A stretch of DNA of 6,325 nt, taken from positions 1 to 6,325 of the forward strand of contig CAMCOJ010000126.1 in NCBI GenBank assembly GCA_945876405.1, in the 5' to 3' direction. The notes under the pieces were generated by a model that made no database searches, was not told the DNA's origin, and saw only the letters and a list, made by a program, of their open reading frames with translations. Of the stretch, positions 1-6,280 are shown in pieces. The position numbers and the translations under genes were made by a program. This DNA comes from an uncultured Ruminococcus sp. (GTDB taxonomy: Bacteria; Bacillota; Clostridia; Oscillospirales; Ruminococcaceae). Numbering within the stretch: the stretch's first letter is position 1; every line of letters begins with the position of its first letter.

Positions 1-46
1 TACACAAGGAGTATCGTCGGCAGCGTCAGATGTGTATAAGAGACAG
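1..46 (+). other. Nextera read-1 adapter with i5 index (library artefact)
   Basis: This is not native DNA. Bases 1-5 (TACAC) match the end of the Illumina P5 oligo, 6-13 (AAGGAGTA) match an i5 index of the Nextera set (remembered as the 507 index), and 14-46 match the read-1 transposase adapter, ending in the mosaic-end bases AGATGTGTATAAGAGACAG. Genomic sequence begins at 47. A GTG at 32 inside the adapter lets an open reading frame run into the kinase gene, giving the false N-terminus MYKRQ. Confidence 0.98.
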
Positions 47-1111
47 TATCTGACATGCGTCGAGGGCGATGCTCCGAACACAAAGGTTGTTATAATCTGC
101 TCCGTCCTGAAAAATCCCGGTACCTCTGCGGACTGCTACCTCATTGTAAGTTCTCTTATCACTCCGATGAACACAACTATTATGCTGCTTAAACAGAGCA
201 GTTATTTTATAATAATACTGCTTATTGTCTTCTCGGTATTTCTTTCCGTGATAATGTCAAAAAGTATCGCAGAACCAATCCAGAAAATAACCGAATCCGC
301 TGATAAACTCGCTAAAGGCGAATACAAAACCGAGTTTGACGGAGGCAGATTTGCTGAAACAAAAAAGCTGGCAAAAACACTTAACTATGCCTCGGCAGAG
401 ATTTCAAAAATAGACGAGCTTCAGCGTGACCTCATCGCAAATGTTTCACATGATCTCAGAACACCGCTGACCATGATAAAAGCCTACGCTGAGATGATAA
501 GGGATATTTCCGGTGAACGCAGGGAAAAACGAGAGGAGCATCTCGGAATAATAATCAAGGAAACAGACAGACTTGCTGCACTTGTAAGTGATATGCTTGA
601 TCTCTCAAAGCTTGAAAACGGAAGTCAGCCACTGAACTATTCCAGCTTTGACATGAATTCGAAACTCAGGGATATTGTTGAAAGATACAAGGGTTTTTCT
701 GAACCAAACGGTTACACAATAAACTATACAGAATCCTCCCCTGTTTTTGTAAGATGTGATATGGGAAAGATTGAACAGGTAATTTACAATCTTATTAACA
801 ACGCAGTAAACTATACAGGCGATGACAAACAGATATATGTCTCAATGGAAACTGAAGAAGATTTTGTAAAAATAACAGTAAAAGATACCGGAAAAGGCAT
901 CTCTGAAGAAAATATACACCAGATTTTCGAAAAATATTACCGCTGTGAAAAAACACGCAGAGAAGTTGTGGGCACCGGTCTCGGTCTCTCCATAGTACGT
1001 GCTGTACTGAAAGCTCATAACTTTCCGTTTGGTGTTCAGAGCGCTCCCGGGAAAGGAACTGCTTTCTGGTTTAAAGTAAAACGCGACAAAGAGTCAATCT
1101 GTATCCAATAA
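47..1111 (+). CDS. sensor histidine kinase, 5'-truncated
   Basis: This is the C-terminal 354 residues of a membrane-bound two-component sensor kinase. It should autophosphorylate a histidine with ATP and pass the phosphate to a response regulator, probably encoded upstream and lost. Numbering from base 47, residues 1-50 are the end of an extracytoplasmic sensor region. Residues 53-70 are a transmembrane helix. Residues 71 to about 122 form a HAMP-like linker (AEPIQKITESADKLAKGEY). The HisKA helix has the phospho-acceptor His135 in NVSHDLRTPL. The HATPase domain shows the N box (NLINNAVNYT, Asn252), G1 box (DTGKGI, Asp280), F box (IFEKYY) and G2 box (GTGLGLSIV, from Gly309). All catalytic motifs are intact. 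The native start and first transmembrane helix lie outside the fragment, so the signal sensed cannot be inferred. Stop is TAA at 1109, followed by a terminator. Confidence 0.95.
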   Translation, partial: YLTCVEGDAPNTKVVIICSVLKNPGTSADCYLIVSSLITPMNTTIMLLKQSSYFIIILLIVFSVFLSVIMSKSIAEPIQKITESADKLAKGEYKTEFDGGRFAETKKLAKTLNYASAEISKIDELQRDLIANVSHDLRTPLTMIKAYAEMIRDISGERREKREEHLGIIIKETDRLAALVSDMLDLSKLENGSQPLNYSSFDMNSKLRDIVERYKGFSEPNGYTINYTESSPVFVRCDMGKIEQVIYNLINNAVNYTGDDKQIYVSMETEEDFVKITVKDTGKGISEENIHQIFEKYYRCEKTRREVVGTGLGLSIVRAVLKAHNFPFGVQSAPGKGTAFWFKVKRDKESICIQ

Positions 1112-1227: not shown

Positions 1228-1255
1228 TTAACACATTGCCTGAGTATAATATAAA
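1228..1255 (+). promoter_or_regulatory. putative sigma-A promoter of the candidate small RNA
   Basis: TTAACA (1228-1233) and TATAAA (1250-1255) are separated by 16 nt, which would start RNA near 1262. An overlapping perfect TATAAT at 1245-1250 would instead start near 1257 but lacks a good -35 box at the right distance. The region between the kinase terminator (to 1168) and this promoter holds no other feature I can support. Confidence 0.55.
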
Positions 1256-1256
1256 C

Positions 1257-1422
1257 ATGCTCAGCGAGGGAAAACAAAAACCCGCAGACAAGATAACAAA
1301 TTCGGAAAGCTGAGCTGATTAATTCACGGTATTTTACGTTTACCCCAACGTAGAATATAAATCCCCAATAATCCCTATATCATAACCAAAAACACTCCTT
1401 CTTGTAAGGAGTGTTTTTGGTT
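1257..1422 (+). ncRNA. candidate independent small RNA with C-rich motifs
   Basis: About 165 nt lie between a promoter and a strong hairpin terminator, with no convincing reading frame. A 7-bp stem, GCTCAGC (1259-1265) with GCTGAGC (1309-1315), closes a 5' domain containing a GGG/CCC pairing. A second hairpin, 1330-1340 with 1347-1357, has 11 bp including one G-T pair and displays the loop TACCCC. Two more C-rich stretches follow in what looks like single-stranded sequence (ATCCCC at 1361-1366, ATCCC at 1371-1375) before the terminator. C-rich loops that bind Shine-Dalgarno sequences are known in Firmicutes sRNAs such as RsaE/RoxS; the similarity here is in layout, not demonstrated homology. 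Because the downstream gene has its own promoter at 1461-1489, a leader riboswitch is less likely. I recognise no named RNA family. Confidence 0.5.
1384..1422. terminator. 17-bp perfect hairpin terminator
   Basis: AACCAAAAACACTCCTT (1384-1400) pairs perfectly with AAGGAGTGTTTTTGGTT (1406-1422) around the loop CTTGT. Read as a terminator, the core is CACTCCTT/AAGGAGTG followed by TTTTTGGTT. The A-run on the 5' arm makes it equally plausible in the minus direction. It insulates the candidate RNA from the next gene. Confidence 0.85.
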
Positions 1423-1460
1423 AACAGAAAAACAAGTGAAAATATTTTTTGGCAAAAGTA

Positions 1461-2913: not shown

Positions 2914-3215
2914 ATGTTAGTTTTATAAGTTTTAAATCCTATGAACAAAAGTAAGTAATCTTCAAAACGGTCTTACAGAGAGCTGAACATTGCTGGAAGT
3001 TCGGCAGATACGATGATGCATGAATGGATTTGTGAGGAGCCCGGTGAAATTTTATTTTAAAAGTATCCGGCGCCGTTTGTTCCGCGTTACAGGAACAGGA
3101 TATAAGGTATTTTATACCCGTATCTGTTAAGAGGATTCTTTGTAATCCTGAATCAGGGTGGCACCACGGTATGTCTATCGTCCCTTCTATATGAAGTGAT
3201 GATAGGCATTTTTTG
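2914..3215 (+). promoter_or_regulatory. tryptophan-specific T-box riboswitch
   Basis: This leader senses the charging state of tRNA-Trp and controls read-through into trpE. Stem I is closed by TCCT/AGGA (2937-2940/3035-3038) and ACAAA/TTTGT (2945-2949/3029-3033). Its specifier loop has AGTAA (2950-2954) on one side and GAA then TGG, A on the other, so the specifier codon is UGG (3025-3027), Trp. AGAGAG and an apical hairpin (2982-2988/2999-3005) follow the usual stem I pattern. Stem III is probably AGGATT/AATCCT (3132-3137/3144-3149). The T-box AGGGTGGCACCACGG is at 3155-3169. Its bulge TGGC (3159-3162) matches the GCCA end expected of tRNA-Trp with discriminator G. The antiterminator pairs AGGG with CCCT (3182-3185) and ACG (3166-3168) with CGT (3179-3181). 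Confidence 0.95.
3171..3214 (+). terminator. T-box regulated terminator
   Basis: Arms 3171-3187 and 3193-3209 form a 17-position stem with one C-T mismatch and a few G-T pairs around the loop TATAT, followed by six Ts (3209-3214). Its 5' arm uses CGTCCCT (3179-3185), the same bases needed by the antiterminator, so the two folds exclude each other. Charged tRNA-Trp should favour this form and stop transcription before trpE. Confidence 0.92.
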
Positions 3216-3247: not shown

Positions 3248-4729
3248 ATGCTTAAAGTAAAAACATCAGTTGATGAGATTAAAAATTATCTTAAAGATTA
3301 CAATATGGCACCGGTTATGTTTGAAGCACTTTCTGACACACAGACTCCTGTCAGAGTTTATCAGACACTCAGCCAGGGGCAAAAATACAGCTTTATACTC
3401 GAAAGTGTTGACAACAATGAAAAATGGGGACGTTATTCATTTATAGGAATTAATCCGAAACTCGAGATTATAATAAAGGATCACTGTGCTGAGATAAAAT
3501 CCCCTTCCCATACTGAAAAAGCCAGAGTTGATGACCCGGTCAGATTTATCTCCTACTATATTGACAAGTACAGAATGCCGAAAATAAAAAATGCACCTAA
3601 ACTGCTGGGCGGTCTTGTCGGTTACTTCGGATACGATATTGTCCGGTACATGGAACCTAAACTCACAAATATTCCGCATGATGATATCGAACTCCCTGAC
3701 TGTGATCTTTTCCTCTATGATGAACTGATTGCATTTGACCACCTGAGCGGAAAAATAATCATTATCGAAAATATCCTTAAAGATACTCCGGTAAGCATTG
3801 AAGAACAGTATGAAAAGGCATGTGAAAGAGCTGAAGCGGTATACAGAAAAACATTTGACAGCTTTGCTCCTGACCATATAAGACCTTCAGCAAGTGAATT
3901 CAGTGTTACTTCAAATGTCACAAAGGAAGAATTTGAAGCCAGTGTTGAGAAGGCAAAGGAACATATAGTCAACGGTGATATATTCCAGGTCGTTCTCTCA
4001 CAGCGTTTTGAGATAGACAATCCGCCGGACAGTTTCGCAGTATACAGAATGCTCCGGGCTACAAATCCGTCGCCTTATCTTTTCTATTTTAAAAATCCAG
4101 ACTACTGTATAGCAGGTGCTTCACCTGAAATGCTTGTAAATGTTACTGATTCAGTTATCACTACAAAGCCTATTGCAGGAACAATGCCGAGAGGAACAAC
4201 AGATGAAGAGGACGAAAGATTTGAAAAGCATCTTATCAGTGATGAAAAGGAACGTGCAGAACACACAATGCTGGTCGATCTGGGAAGAAACGATATCGGA
4301 AAGGTTTCCGAATACGGCTCGGTAAAGGTTTCAAACCTCATGCACATCGAACGTTATTCAAAGGTTATGCATATCGTATCAGATGTATCCGGTAAACTCA
4401 AAGAAGATAAAAATGCTGTTGACGCCCTCCTCTCCGTCCTCCCTGCAGGAACCCTTTCAGGAGCCCCTAAAGTAAGGGCAATGGAACTTATCGATAGTTT
4501 TGAAAAAACAAAACGCTGTCTTTACGGCGGAACGGTCGGATACCTTGGATTTGACGGAAACATAGATACCTGCATAGCGATAAGAACAGTCCTCTTCAAA
4601 AACAGCAAAGCCTACATCCAGGCCGGAGCCGGCATAGTAGCCGACTCAATCCCTGAAAGAGAATACAACGAAACCAGAAACAAAGCCATGGCAATGATAA
4701 ACGCCGTAAAAGACGCCTCCGAAATATAA
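3248..4729 (+). CDS. trpE: anthranilate synthase component I
   Basis: This 493-residue protein has the usual TrpE length. It converts chorismate to anthranilate using ammonia supplied by TrpG, the first committed step of tryptophan synthesis in the cytoplasm. The N-terminal part carries ILES (50-53), the family's tryptophan-binding motif, and NPSPYLFYF (273-281), which also lines the Trp site, so feedback inhibition is expected. The chorismate-binding domain shows GASPE (290-294), [11 protein letters not shown] (306-316), [16 protein letters not shown] (338 onward, with His339), [18 protein letters not shown] (398-415), [14 protein letters not shown] (427-440) and [18 protein letters not shown] (459-476). 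These fit TrpE better than PabB, as do the Trp T-box and fused trpG-trpD context. The ATG has GGAGG (3236-3240) 7 nt upstream. The last 52 codons are markedly poor in T-ending codons compared with the first 52. Confidence 0.97.
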
Positions 4730-4731
4730 AC

Positions 4732-4875
4732 GCGAAGGTGCAGGGCAACCGCAAAGCCCTGCTGAGCGAAGGTGCAGGCGACCGAAGGGAGTGCAGAGCT
4801 CGACCGCAAAGCCCTGCTAAGCGAAGGTGCAGGCGACCGAAGGGAGTGCAGAGCTCGACCGCAAAGCCCTGCTGA
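4732..4875 (+). repeat. GC-rich 55-bp tandem repeat between trpE and trpGD
   Basis: Two full 55-bp units (4766-4820 and 4821-4875) differ at one base, near the end (CTAA versus CTGA). A shorter 34-bp copy (4732-4765) precedes them and lacks a net 21 bp from the middle. The full unit is 36/55 GC, far above the surrounding genes. Each full unit contains an imperfect internal duplication: GTGCAG at unit positions 7-12 and 26-31, and GACCG at 15-19 and 37-41. The short copy folds into a perfect 7-bp hairpin, GCAGGGC (4740-4746) with GCCCTGC (4756-4762). There is no T-run after any hairpin, so these are not ordinary terminators. The function is unknown; possibilities include a REP-like intergenic repeat or an mRNA processing or stability element. 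Confidence 0.92.
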
Positions 4876-4932: not shown

Positions 4933-6280
4933 ATGATTATAATGATCGATAACTACGACTCATTCACCTATAACCTCTATCAGCTCATCGGTACAATGTA
5001 CCCCGACATAAAGGTATTCAGAAATGACGAAATAACAATTGAAGAAATGGAAAACCTCAACCCTGACGGAATCATCATTTCTCCGGGACCGGGTTATCCG
5101 GCAGACGCAGGTATATCAATACCGGCAATCAAACACTTCGCCACCGAGATTCCGATTCTCGGTGTATGCCTCGGTCACCAGGCGATAGTCGAAGCCTTCG
5201 GCGGCAAGATAGTAAAAGCTGAACAGCTTATGCACGGAAAAGCAAGTGAGATATCCATAGCTTCGACAACGCAGCTTTTCGATTCGCTTCCGGAAAAAAT
5301 CACAGTTGCAAGATACCATTCACTTATTGCAGACAGTGCCTCCAACCCTGACTGTCTCAAGGTTACAGCACGTGATGAAAACGGTCAGATAATGGCTGTT
5401 GAACACAGAGTCTACAAGGTATTCGGTGTCCAGTTCCACCCTGAATCAATACTTACACCTGATGGTGCAGTAATTATCCAGAACTTCCTGAAAAATGTTG
5501 AGGGCTTTGGAAAGCAGAATTCACCTGCTCCTTCTGAGGAAAAAACTGAACTGAAAAAGTACATCTCAAAAGTTGCCGACAAACGTGAACATCTTACGGA
5601 GAGCGAAGCCTATGATGCTATGATGTGCATAATGAACGGAAAAGCCACAGATGCCCAGATTGCATCTCTCCTTACAGCTATGAAGTTTAACGGGGAAAAC
5701 ACAGATGAAATAACCGGATTTGCAAAGGGCATGCGCGAGATGGCGTCTGAAGTAACCAGCTGCCGCGATGCAATAGACATAGTAGGTACCGGCGGAGATA
5801 TGTCAAACACATTTAACATCTCAACCACATCAGCCTTTGTAATCTCTGCATGCGGAGTCAGAGTTGCCAAGCACGGAAACAGAAGCGTGTCAAGCAAAAG
5901 CGGTGCCGCTGACACACTTGAGAGCGTAGGTGTAAAAATTGCCTCAACTCCTGAAGAAGCAAAAAAATACATCGACACAATCGGTCTCTCATTTCTCTTT
6001 GCCCAGAGCTATCACAGCAGCATGAGATATGTTGCTCCGGCACGAAAGCAGCTTGGTATCAAAACCGTATTCAATATACTGGGACCTCTTACAAATCCGG
6101 CAAAAACAGACTACATTGTTCTTGGTACATACTCCAGAGACCTTCTCAGACCTATGTCTGAAGTACTTATCAACCTTGGAATCAAACACGCAATGCTTGT
6201 CCACGGAAACGACTGTATCGATGAGATATCAATCTCCGCTCCTACATCAGTATGCGAAATAAAAGACGGACAGATAAGCG
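4933..6280 (+). CDS. trpGD: fused TrpG-TrpD (amidotransferase / anthranilate PRTase), 3'-truncated
   Basis: One uninterrupted frame encodes two enzymes; 449 native residues remain before the adapter. Residues 1 to about 190 are the class I glutamine amidotransferase that supplies ammonia to TrpE: SPGPGYP (50-56), nucleophile Cys79 in GVCLGHQA, and His169 and Glu171 in FHPES. A linker of about 15 polar residues (PAPSEEKTE) leads into anthranilate phosphoribosyltransferase, which joins anthranilate to PRPP: GTGGD (285-289), KHGNRSVSSKSGAAD (313-327), FNILGPLTNPA (380-390) and the metal-binding Asp430-Glu431 in IDEIS. Roughly 80-90 C-terminal residues are missing, judging from the 531 residues of the E. 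coli fusion. The frame continues past 6280 only through adapter. The ATG at 4933 has AGGAG 10 nt upstream. The usual tight trpE-trpG spacing is replaced here by a 203-bp gap with a repeat. Confidence 0.96.

Follow-up and report, generated by a model that had tools for sequence, protein, structure and literature searches.

Downstream of a sensor histidine kinase gene in an uncultured Ruminococcus sp. lies a unit that is, judging from its sequence and that of its relatives, virtually certain to be a conserved RNA gene. We consider it probable that this gene encodes a stand-alone, structured small RNA (sRNA) that is switched on mainly when the neighboring two-component system is active, and that its C-rich loop and linker would block the translation of target mRNAs. 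The window analyzed here is the whole stretch of 6,325 nucleotides, one contig of a 2.5-Mb genome in 434 contigs. A sequence-only reading had proposed a stand-alone sRNA gene with C-rich loops between positions 1228 and 1425, and conservation and covariation support it; they settle that the RNA unit is real and not a product of chance.

The RNA gene occupies positions 1257 to 1425 of the forward strand, as do all features given below, and would yield a transcript of about 160 to 165 nt if transcription, predicted to start near 1257, terminates in the U run near 1417. The -10 box (TATAAT, 1245 to 1250), read in the sequence and conserved in the genus copies, stands 9 nt after the last of four repeats spaced by 11 bp (1196 to 1235). 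These repeats (TATCACA at 1196, TTTCACA at 1207, TCTCATA at 1218, and TAACACA at 1229) stand in place of a -35 hexamer and form a predicted response-regulator binding site. The promoter postulated earlier holds, with the repeats lying mostly outside the span then noted. The RNA begins with a variable 5' hairpin domain (1259 to 1315), closed by an outer 7-bp stem (1259 to 1265/1309 to 1315), and continues with a 12-bp C-loop hairpin (1329 to 1358; arms 1329 to 1340 and 1347 to 1358) presenting the loop TACCCC (1341 to 1346). The C-rich linker AAATCCCCAATAATCCCTATATCA (1359 to 1382) is predicted to be mostly single-stranded and contains the runs UCCCC (1362 to 1366) and UCCC (1372 to 1375), part of the latter being loosely paired in the fold of the window's copy. 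Both stems, the TACCCC loop, and the later C stretches had been picked out beforehand; all are present, with compensatory changes in both stems and a conserved C-rich loop and linker.

An intrinsic terminator (1383 to 1423) closes the unit. Its stem is perfect, as had been stated, but measures 18 bp instead of 17 (arms 1383 to 1400 and 1406 to 1423), with a run of five U residues inside the stem. The hairpin is missing from the list returned by a simple terminator scan, and its sequence makes it look bidirectional. With the terminator, the RNA folds at a lower energy than 200 of 200 dinucleotide shuffles (z -6.8); the fold without it also falls below 200 such shuffles (z -3.0).

Nine of 11 genomes of the genus carry a full copy of the RNA, whereas G002 has it in two parts on two contig ends and G005 has none. 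A 58-nt core, spanning the C-loop hairpin and the C-rich linker up to where the terminator starts, is identical in eight of the nine full-length copies; the ninth differs by one change, in the loop. A first covariance model, built from nine copies and searched against 297 genomes of the family (E ≤ 0.1), matched 44 genomes, several of the weak matches being false. A second model, built from 31 copies and searched against 396 family genomes (E ≤ 1e-4), matched 47. When one locus was read in each of these 47 genomes, the linker motif was found in 46 (exactly in 39, one edit away in 5, and three edits away in 2), and G222 gave a covariance match without the motif. Matches lacking the motif were left out, namely, L067, L068, and L070 from the first model, G222, and the second match in G217. 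The RNA occurs in 11 genera (g1, g3, g6, g20, g28, g29, g86, g91, g93, g117, and g118), and 33 of 35 copies contain the motif CCCAATAATCC(C)TATATCAT with at most one edit. In a g20 copy (G742), the linker is retained, with no C-loop seen before it.

At the level of the order, a search of 394 genomes (E ≤ 0.01) returned 14 matched genomes. Besides the window's own, three of these have the motif, all from the same family, and ten are without it; no spread beyond the family was seen among these 14 matches. In a genome collection, eight stretches match the linker exactly, all from metagenome-assembled genomes that bear the names Ruminococcus sp. or Oscillospiraceae bacterium. Five of the six g29 genomes have two RNA copies, about 200 nt apart in four pairs and 6.6 kb apart in one, and the second copies possess their own terminator and promoter-like repeats. 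A phage or plasmid origin was rejected, with no match in three collections (one of them queried by exact-motif search).

The structure itself is borne out by compensatory change. In an alignment of 31 copies, 30 of them distinct, standard pairs fill 95.6% of cells versus 66.8% after shuffling, two-sided changes occur at 29 of 30 pairs, and the covariation score reaches 0.789 versus 0.247 for shuffled alignments and no more than 0.149 with the partner slid. Fitting the alignment to the first model favors that model's structure, yet the slid controls and the many pair types make model fitting an unlikely source of the covariation. Across these 31 copies, every one of the 12 pairs of the C-loop hairpin shows two-sided compensatory changes, and the CCCC in the hairpin arm is retained in 31 of 35 copies. 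Within the genus, 59 of 63 cells of the outer 7-bp 5' stem are paired in the nine copies, with two-sided changes at 4 of 7 pairs, and the interior of that domain changes in length and sequence between copies; in the terminator, 8 of 18 pairs change on both sides. Its outer pairs TAAC/GTTA, past the U run, do not vary among the nine genus copies, though they seem unneeded for termination. A loss of the stems or of the C-rich loops, looked for in the relatives, was not found.

These patterns also bear on what else the region might be. A small conserved peptide is exceedingly improbable: the window does contain an ATG frame of 18 codons at 1257, and within the core lies an open frame of 18 codons that in most copies has no start codon, but the ATG frame is common to the closest relative only, the stems change in compensation, and the second C run is one base shorter in g93 and g3, which shifts the frame of the linker. 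A conserved peptide was looked for in the region and not found, and we rejected this possibility because no open reading frame is shared beyond close relatives. Very improbable, too, is a cis-acting leader or attenuator. A same-strand gene does lie downstream in the window, but in 5 of the 9 genus copies the downstream gene is reversed, and different genera have different genes there; without a constant orientation and linkage to one downstream gene, the leader was rejected as well.

Upstream of the RNA gene, the window begins with the sensor histidine kinase gene (47 to 1111; Pfam HisKA and HATPase_c), which lacks its 5' end and is the last gene of a regulator-kinase operon. Both contig ends (14 to 46 and 6281 to 6314) resemble what we take to be a Nextera sequencing adapter, and consequently the kinase frame begins with artefactual residues and the contig ends with artefactual bases; the kinase query (window positions 32 to 1111) starts with five adapter-derived residues. 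A predicted terminator hairpin (1119 to 1167; fold -17.4 kcal/mol, z -6.2) separates the kinase operon from the RNA gene. Farther downstream, a T-box leader (2932 to 3188; Rfam RF00230, 107 bits) lies upstream of a trpE-like gene (3248 to 4729), followed by a 55-bp tandem repeat of 2.3 copies (4748 to 4875) and by a single open frame (4933 to 6280), cut off by the contig end, that fuses trpG-like (anthranilate-synthase glutaminase-like) and trpD-like (phosphoribosyltransferase-like) parts, all named by inspection. Elsewhere, the RNA lies near a small gene, presumably ireB-like, in two g28 genomes (L057 and L062), and a SAM riboswitch (L048, 2919 to 3021) near an S-adenosylmethionine-synthetase-like gene stands beside the RNA gene in g20.

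The promoter ties the RNA to the neighboring two-component system. Its pattern is TTTCACA-N4-TTTCACA-N9-TATAAT, with 11-bp direct repeats; for two repeats plus the -10 box, 29 of 35 copies reach a score of 16 or more out of 20, compared with 1 of 1,050 shuffled upstream regions. This pattern was searched for in 12 genomes, and the counts given here are for the nine genus genomes. Sites with no more than two mismatches number 11, all of them at promoters of the RNA (four) or of the regulator (seven), and an eighth regulator promoter, in G007, has a box with three mismatches; all eight regulator boxes are located 34 to 115 nt upstream of the regulator start. Since the pattern was derived from RNA promoters, the matches there are unsurprising; the box at the regulator promoters, however, is an independent result of the search. 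Overall, 34 sites were obtained versus 9 in the reversed control, 16 of them at the RNA or regulator and 18 elsewhere, each of the latter with three mismatches; the nine of these 18 that were read have no common theme. Two loci read by inspection (L253 and L196) give a possible regulon lead: the gene after the kinase in G127 resembles a small (p)ppGpp synthetase, and in G004, a three-mismatch box stands ahead of a similar-looking gene.

Gene order and co-occurrence point the same way. The kinase precedes the RNA in all nine full genus copies, and a PhoB/OmpR-type response regulator of 224 to 226 amino acids precedes the kinase in all eight relatives where the contig extends; in the window, the regulator gene is off the contig. 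Outside the genus, the RNA lies within 1 kb downstream of the kinase in 10 of 26 RNA-bearing genomes, and the unlinked copies (g93, g3, and g91) retain the promoter repeats. All 26 RNA-bearing genomes tested there contain a kinase match at E ≤ 4e-107 with 41 to 49% identity, compared with 2 of 21 genomes without the RNA (G031 and G073), a comparison confounded by relatedness. In these two genomes (L240 and L249), a close relative of the kinase is present and the RNA was not detected. The best kinase match in G005, which has no RNA, is 32% identical over part of the protein.

Could the RNA instead be a 3' untranslated region or a read-through product of the kinase operon? It does stand directly after the kinase in many genomes, and in G038 a few bases at most part the kinase stop codon from the start of the repeats, but the RNA has its own -10 box and repeats in the 29 of 35 copies mentioned above, kinase and RNA are separated in the window by a terminator-like hairpin, and unlinked copies keep the promoter, making such an origin quite improbable. 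Because the repeats are shared with the regulator-kinase promoter and the kinase co-occurs with the RNA, a C-rich sRNA under two-component control is likely, and we regard control by the linked system, as predicted from these patterns, as very likely. The simplest reading would be that the regulator activates both its own operon and the RNA.

A structure prediction for the membrane, sensor, and HAMP portion of the kinase drew on 35 relatives, of which two come from genomes lacking the RNA (mean pLDDT 84, pTM 0.59). Among solved structures, this predicted part best matches a WalK model and PAS/Cache-type sensor domains, with low identity and a modest TM-score. None of the 25 best NCBIfam models reached its cutoff with the kinase, the best being WalK; for the regulator, the best models are PhoB, RpaB, and YycF (WalR type), all below cutoff. 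In two close relatives, G000 and G007 (L087 and L088), pstS is preceded by a related repeat pair with 11-bp spacing, TTTAACA-N4-TTTGACA (12 of 14 matches), equalled by 2 and 4 of 1,000 shuffles, respectively. This pair could be an extra target of the regulator, or of another one, and its presence makes a phosphate signal possible. A PhoPR-type phosphate system controlling a phosphate starvation RNA would also fit the PhoB models among the regulator's three best (206 to 217 bits) and the pst operon of G007, which has no adjoining regulator or kinase. Such an assignment is nonetheless unlikely, as the regulator scores below every PhoB cutoff (270 to 471 bits) and about equally with RpaB and WalR-type models, the best model of the kinase is WalK, and pstS is absent from the box search sites. 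Given the 18 three-mismatch sites, versus 9 in the control, and the repeat pair before pstS, the regulon may extend beyond the RNA and its own operon.

Earlier, no described RNA with this sequence had been recognized, and the Rfam comparison agrees: no family reaches its cutoff on the element, in the window or at nine other loci. Subthreshold matches were MCS4 (E 5.5), Thr_leader (E 0.71), and mir-722 (E 3.2) in the window and, in other copies, rnk_pseudo (E 0.072, L119), Thr_leader (E 0.29, L048), and ohsC_RNA (E 0.13) and SSRC34_2 (E 1) in L046. The listed matches, which extend to E = 10 in the window and to E = 1 at the nine loci, do not include the covariance models of LhrC or RoxS/RsaE, two families represented in Rfam. 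Among the literature matches listed, no title or abstract opening describes the RNA. An anonymous entry for it may exist among the 16,482 putative structured RNA models that a human-microbiome screen reports (PMC8040213).

The sequence-only reading had likened the C-rich layout to that of RsaE/RoxS. The likeness holds, but LhrC is at least as close by layout. In excerpts of the papers that describe it, the LhrC family of Listeria monocytogenes (LhrC1-5, Rli22, and Rli33-1) is multicopy, controlled by LisRK, and pairs with ribosome-binding sites; two stem-loops surround a single-stranded stretch, with a C-rich motif in the loop, the stretch, and the terminator loop (PMC4132741; PMC8079631). Compared with that description, our RNA is likewise multicopy, with stem-loops flanking a single-stranded stretch, a C-rich loop and stretch, and predicted two-component control; of the LhrC-type C-rich sites, those in the loop and the stretch are found in nearly all copies, and the one in the terminator loop is found in 5 of 12 copies folded. 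Unlike LhrC as described there (CUCCC..UUUU), its motifs are ACCCC and UCCCC...UCCC, and its terminator loop is C-rich in some copies only; moreover, the gene often ends its own regulator-kinase locus and has an extra 5' hairpin.

Two further systems share part of this design. The streptococcal csRNAs, controlled by CiaRH, have TTTAAG-N5-TTTAAG repeats with the -10 box at a distance of ten, and an unpaired stretch between two stem-loops in several copies, according to the parts of the report cited (PMC3091779). Direct repeats before the -10 box, an unpaired stretch flanked by stem-loops, and several copies recur here, whereas the operator is TTTCACA-N4-TTTCACA, with the -10 box at distance nine. 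The csRNA arrangement, with anti-Shine-Dalgarno and anti-AUG sequences in one unpaired stretch, does not recur here: the linker CAU lies 3' of the C runs, so that a single duplex cannot span a Shine-Dalgarno sequence and an AUG in the usual order. RoxS/RsaE, in the excerpts cited, have C-rich regions, ResDE/SrrAB control, and proposed Shine-Dalgarno pairing (PMC4409812); the C-rich regions and predicted two-component control are common to our RNA, which differs from that description in layout, host lineage, the ACCCC hairpin loop, and the near-invariant linker. By analogy of layout, the RNA likely works like LhrC, the csRNAs, and RoxS/RsaE, yet, by Rfam and motif order, it is a member of none of them.

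The proposal to predict targets by pairing the C-rich stretches with ribosome-binding sites bore no fruit: complement searches in the nine genus genomes and pairing energies at 124 start regions yielded no convincing mRNA target. Complements of the linker and the loop were sought just before ATG. For the linker, 18 matches at 15 distinct sites compare with 10 in the reversed control, with one recognizable start region, that of a NarL-type regulator (by inspection), common to the close relatives G001 and G009 only; a long antisense target of the linker was discarded, none being conserved across the nine genomes. For the loop, 135 matches were found versus 89 in the control, a weak excess for which ordinary G-rich start regions could account, and the 30 loci read included five start regions, among them that of a flagellar rod/hook-like gene in G004 (by inspection). 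At the 124 start regions, pairing energy was no better than that of shuffled seeds in absolute terms. Only for the loop seed was the start-to-internal ratio high, at 2.2, a value that 4 of 60 shuffles attained; for the linker seed, 29 of 60 shuffles attained the observed ratio. Since these tests gave no convincing target, the anti-Shine-Dalgarno step is one that we infer from analogy, by which a C-rich antisense action on mRNAs appears likely. The near-invariance of the linker exceeds what short anti-Shine-Dalgarno seeds would need.

The number of C-loops varies between copies. Folding of 12 copies leaves the C run in the loop of the conserved hairpin unpaired in every one; the other C runs mostly lie in loops or single strands, with some in stems in L037, L048, L058, L065, and L119. 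Five of these copies are from g93 and g3: in four of them a second C-loop hairpin precedes the conserved one, and in four the terminator loop contains CCCC, a feature found in 5 of all 12. With these extra hairpins and C-rich terminator loops, the C-loop looks like an iterated module. RsmY and RsmZ have GGA loops for RsmA/CsrA, whereas the conserved core and linker here contain no GGA. The RNA might still titrate, in the manner of RsmY/RsmZ, a protein that recognizes a different motif, the C-rich loops. The two to three C-loop hairpins per RNA, including the terminator loop, in the five g93/g3 copies folded would suit such a sponge, as would the linker, nearly invariant across genera as a fixed protein partner would predict, and the mRNA target search that found none. 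Yet, other folded copies show just one C-loop, or an additional one in the terminator, and a C-loop-binding regulator of this sort is not known to us from Firmicutes. Repeated C-rich loops can, moreover, be mRNA-pairing sites, as in the LhrC description cited (PMC4132741). On balance, a protein sponge seems rather doubtful.

Returning to antisense control, we envisage that the phosphorylated response regulator would bind the repeats and activate the promoters of the RNA and of the regulator-kinase operon, giving positive autoregulation of the operon with the RNA as a main output. The C-rich hairpin loop and linker could then pair with G-rich ribosome-binding sites and block translation, and the 5' hairpin and terminator might protect the RNA ends, both by analogy with LhrC, the csRNAs, and RoxS/RsaE. 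The small RNA would resemble in this respect the GacA-controlled RsmY/RsmZ, which the text cited presents as the main output of their two-component system (PMC4132741). As a more tentative extension, which is possible although we would not bet on it, this would be a dedicated two-component system signaling mainly via the RNA, with its own operon and the RNA as high-affinity targets, in which C-loop hairpins are gained and lost, retuning the post-transcriptional regulon.

If this is true, a whole group of gut bacteria would have a membrane sensor with a modular RNA output. The strong covariation, the defined promoter code, and the linked regulator make the RNA a test case for post-transcriptional control in relatives of Ruminococcus. 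With it, an apparently unrelated lineage joins the pattern of LhrC, the csRNAs, and RoxS, which suggests that two-component systems may have repeatedly recruited C-rich RNAs in Firmicutes.
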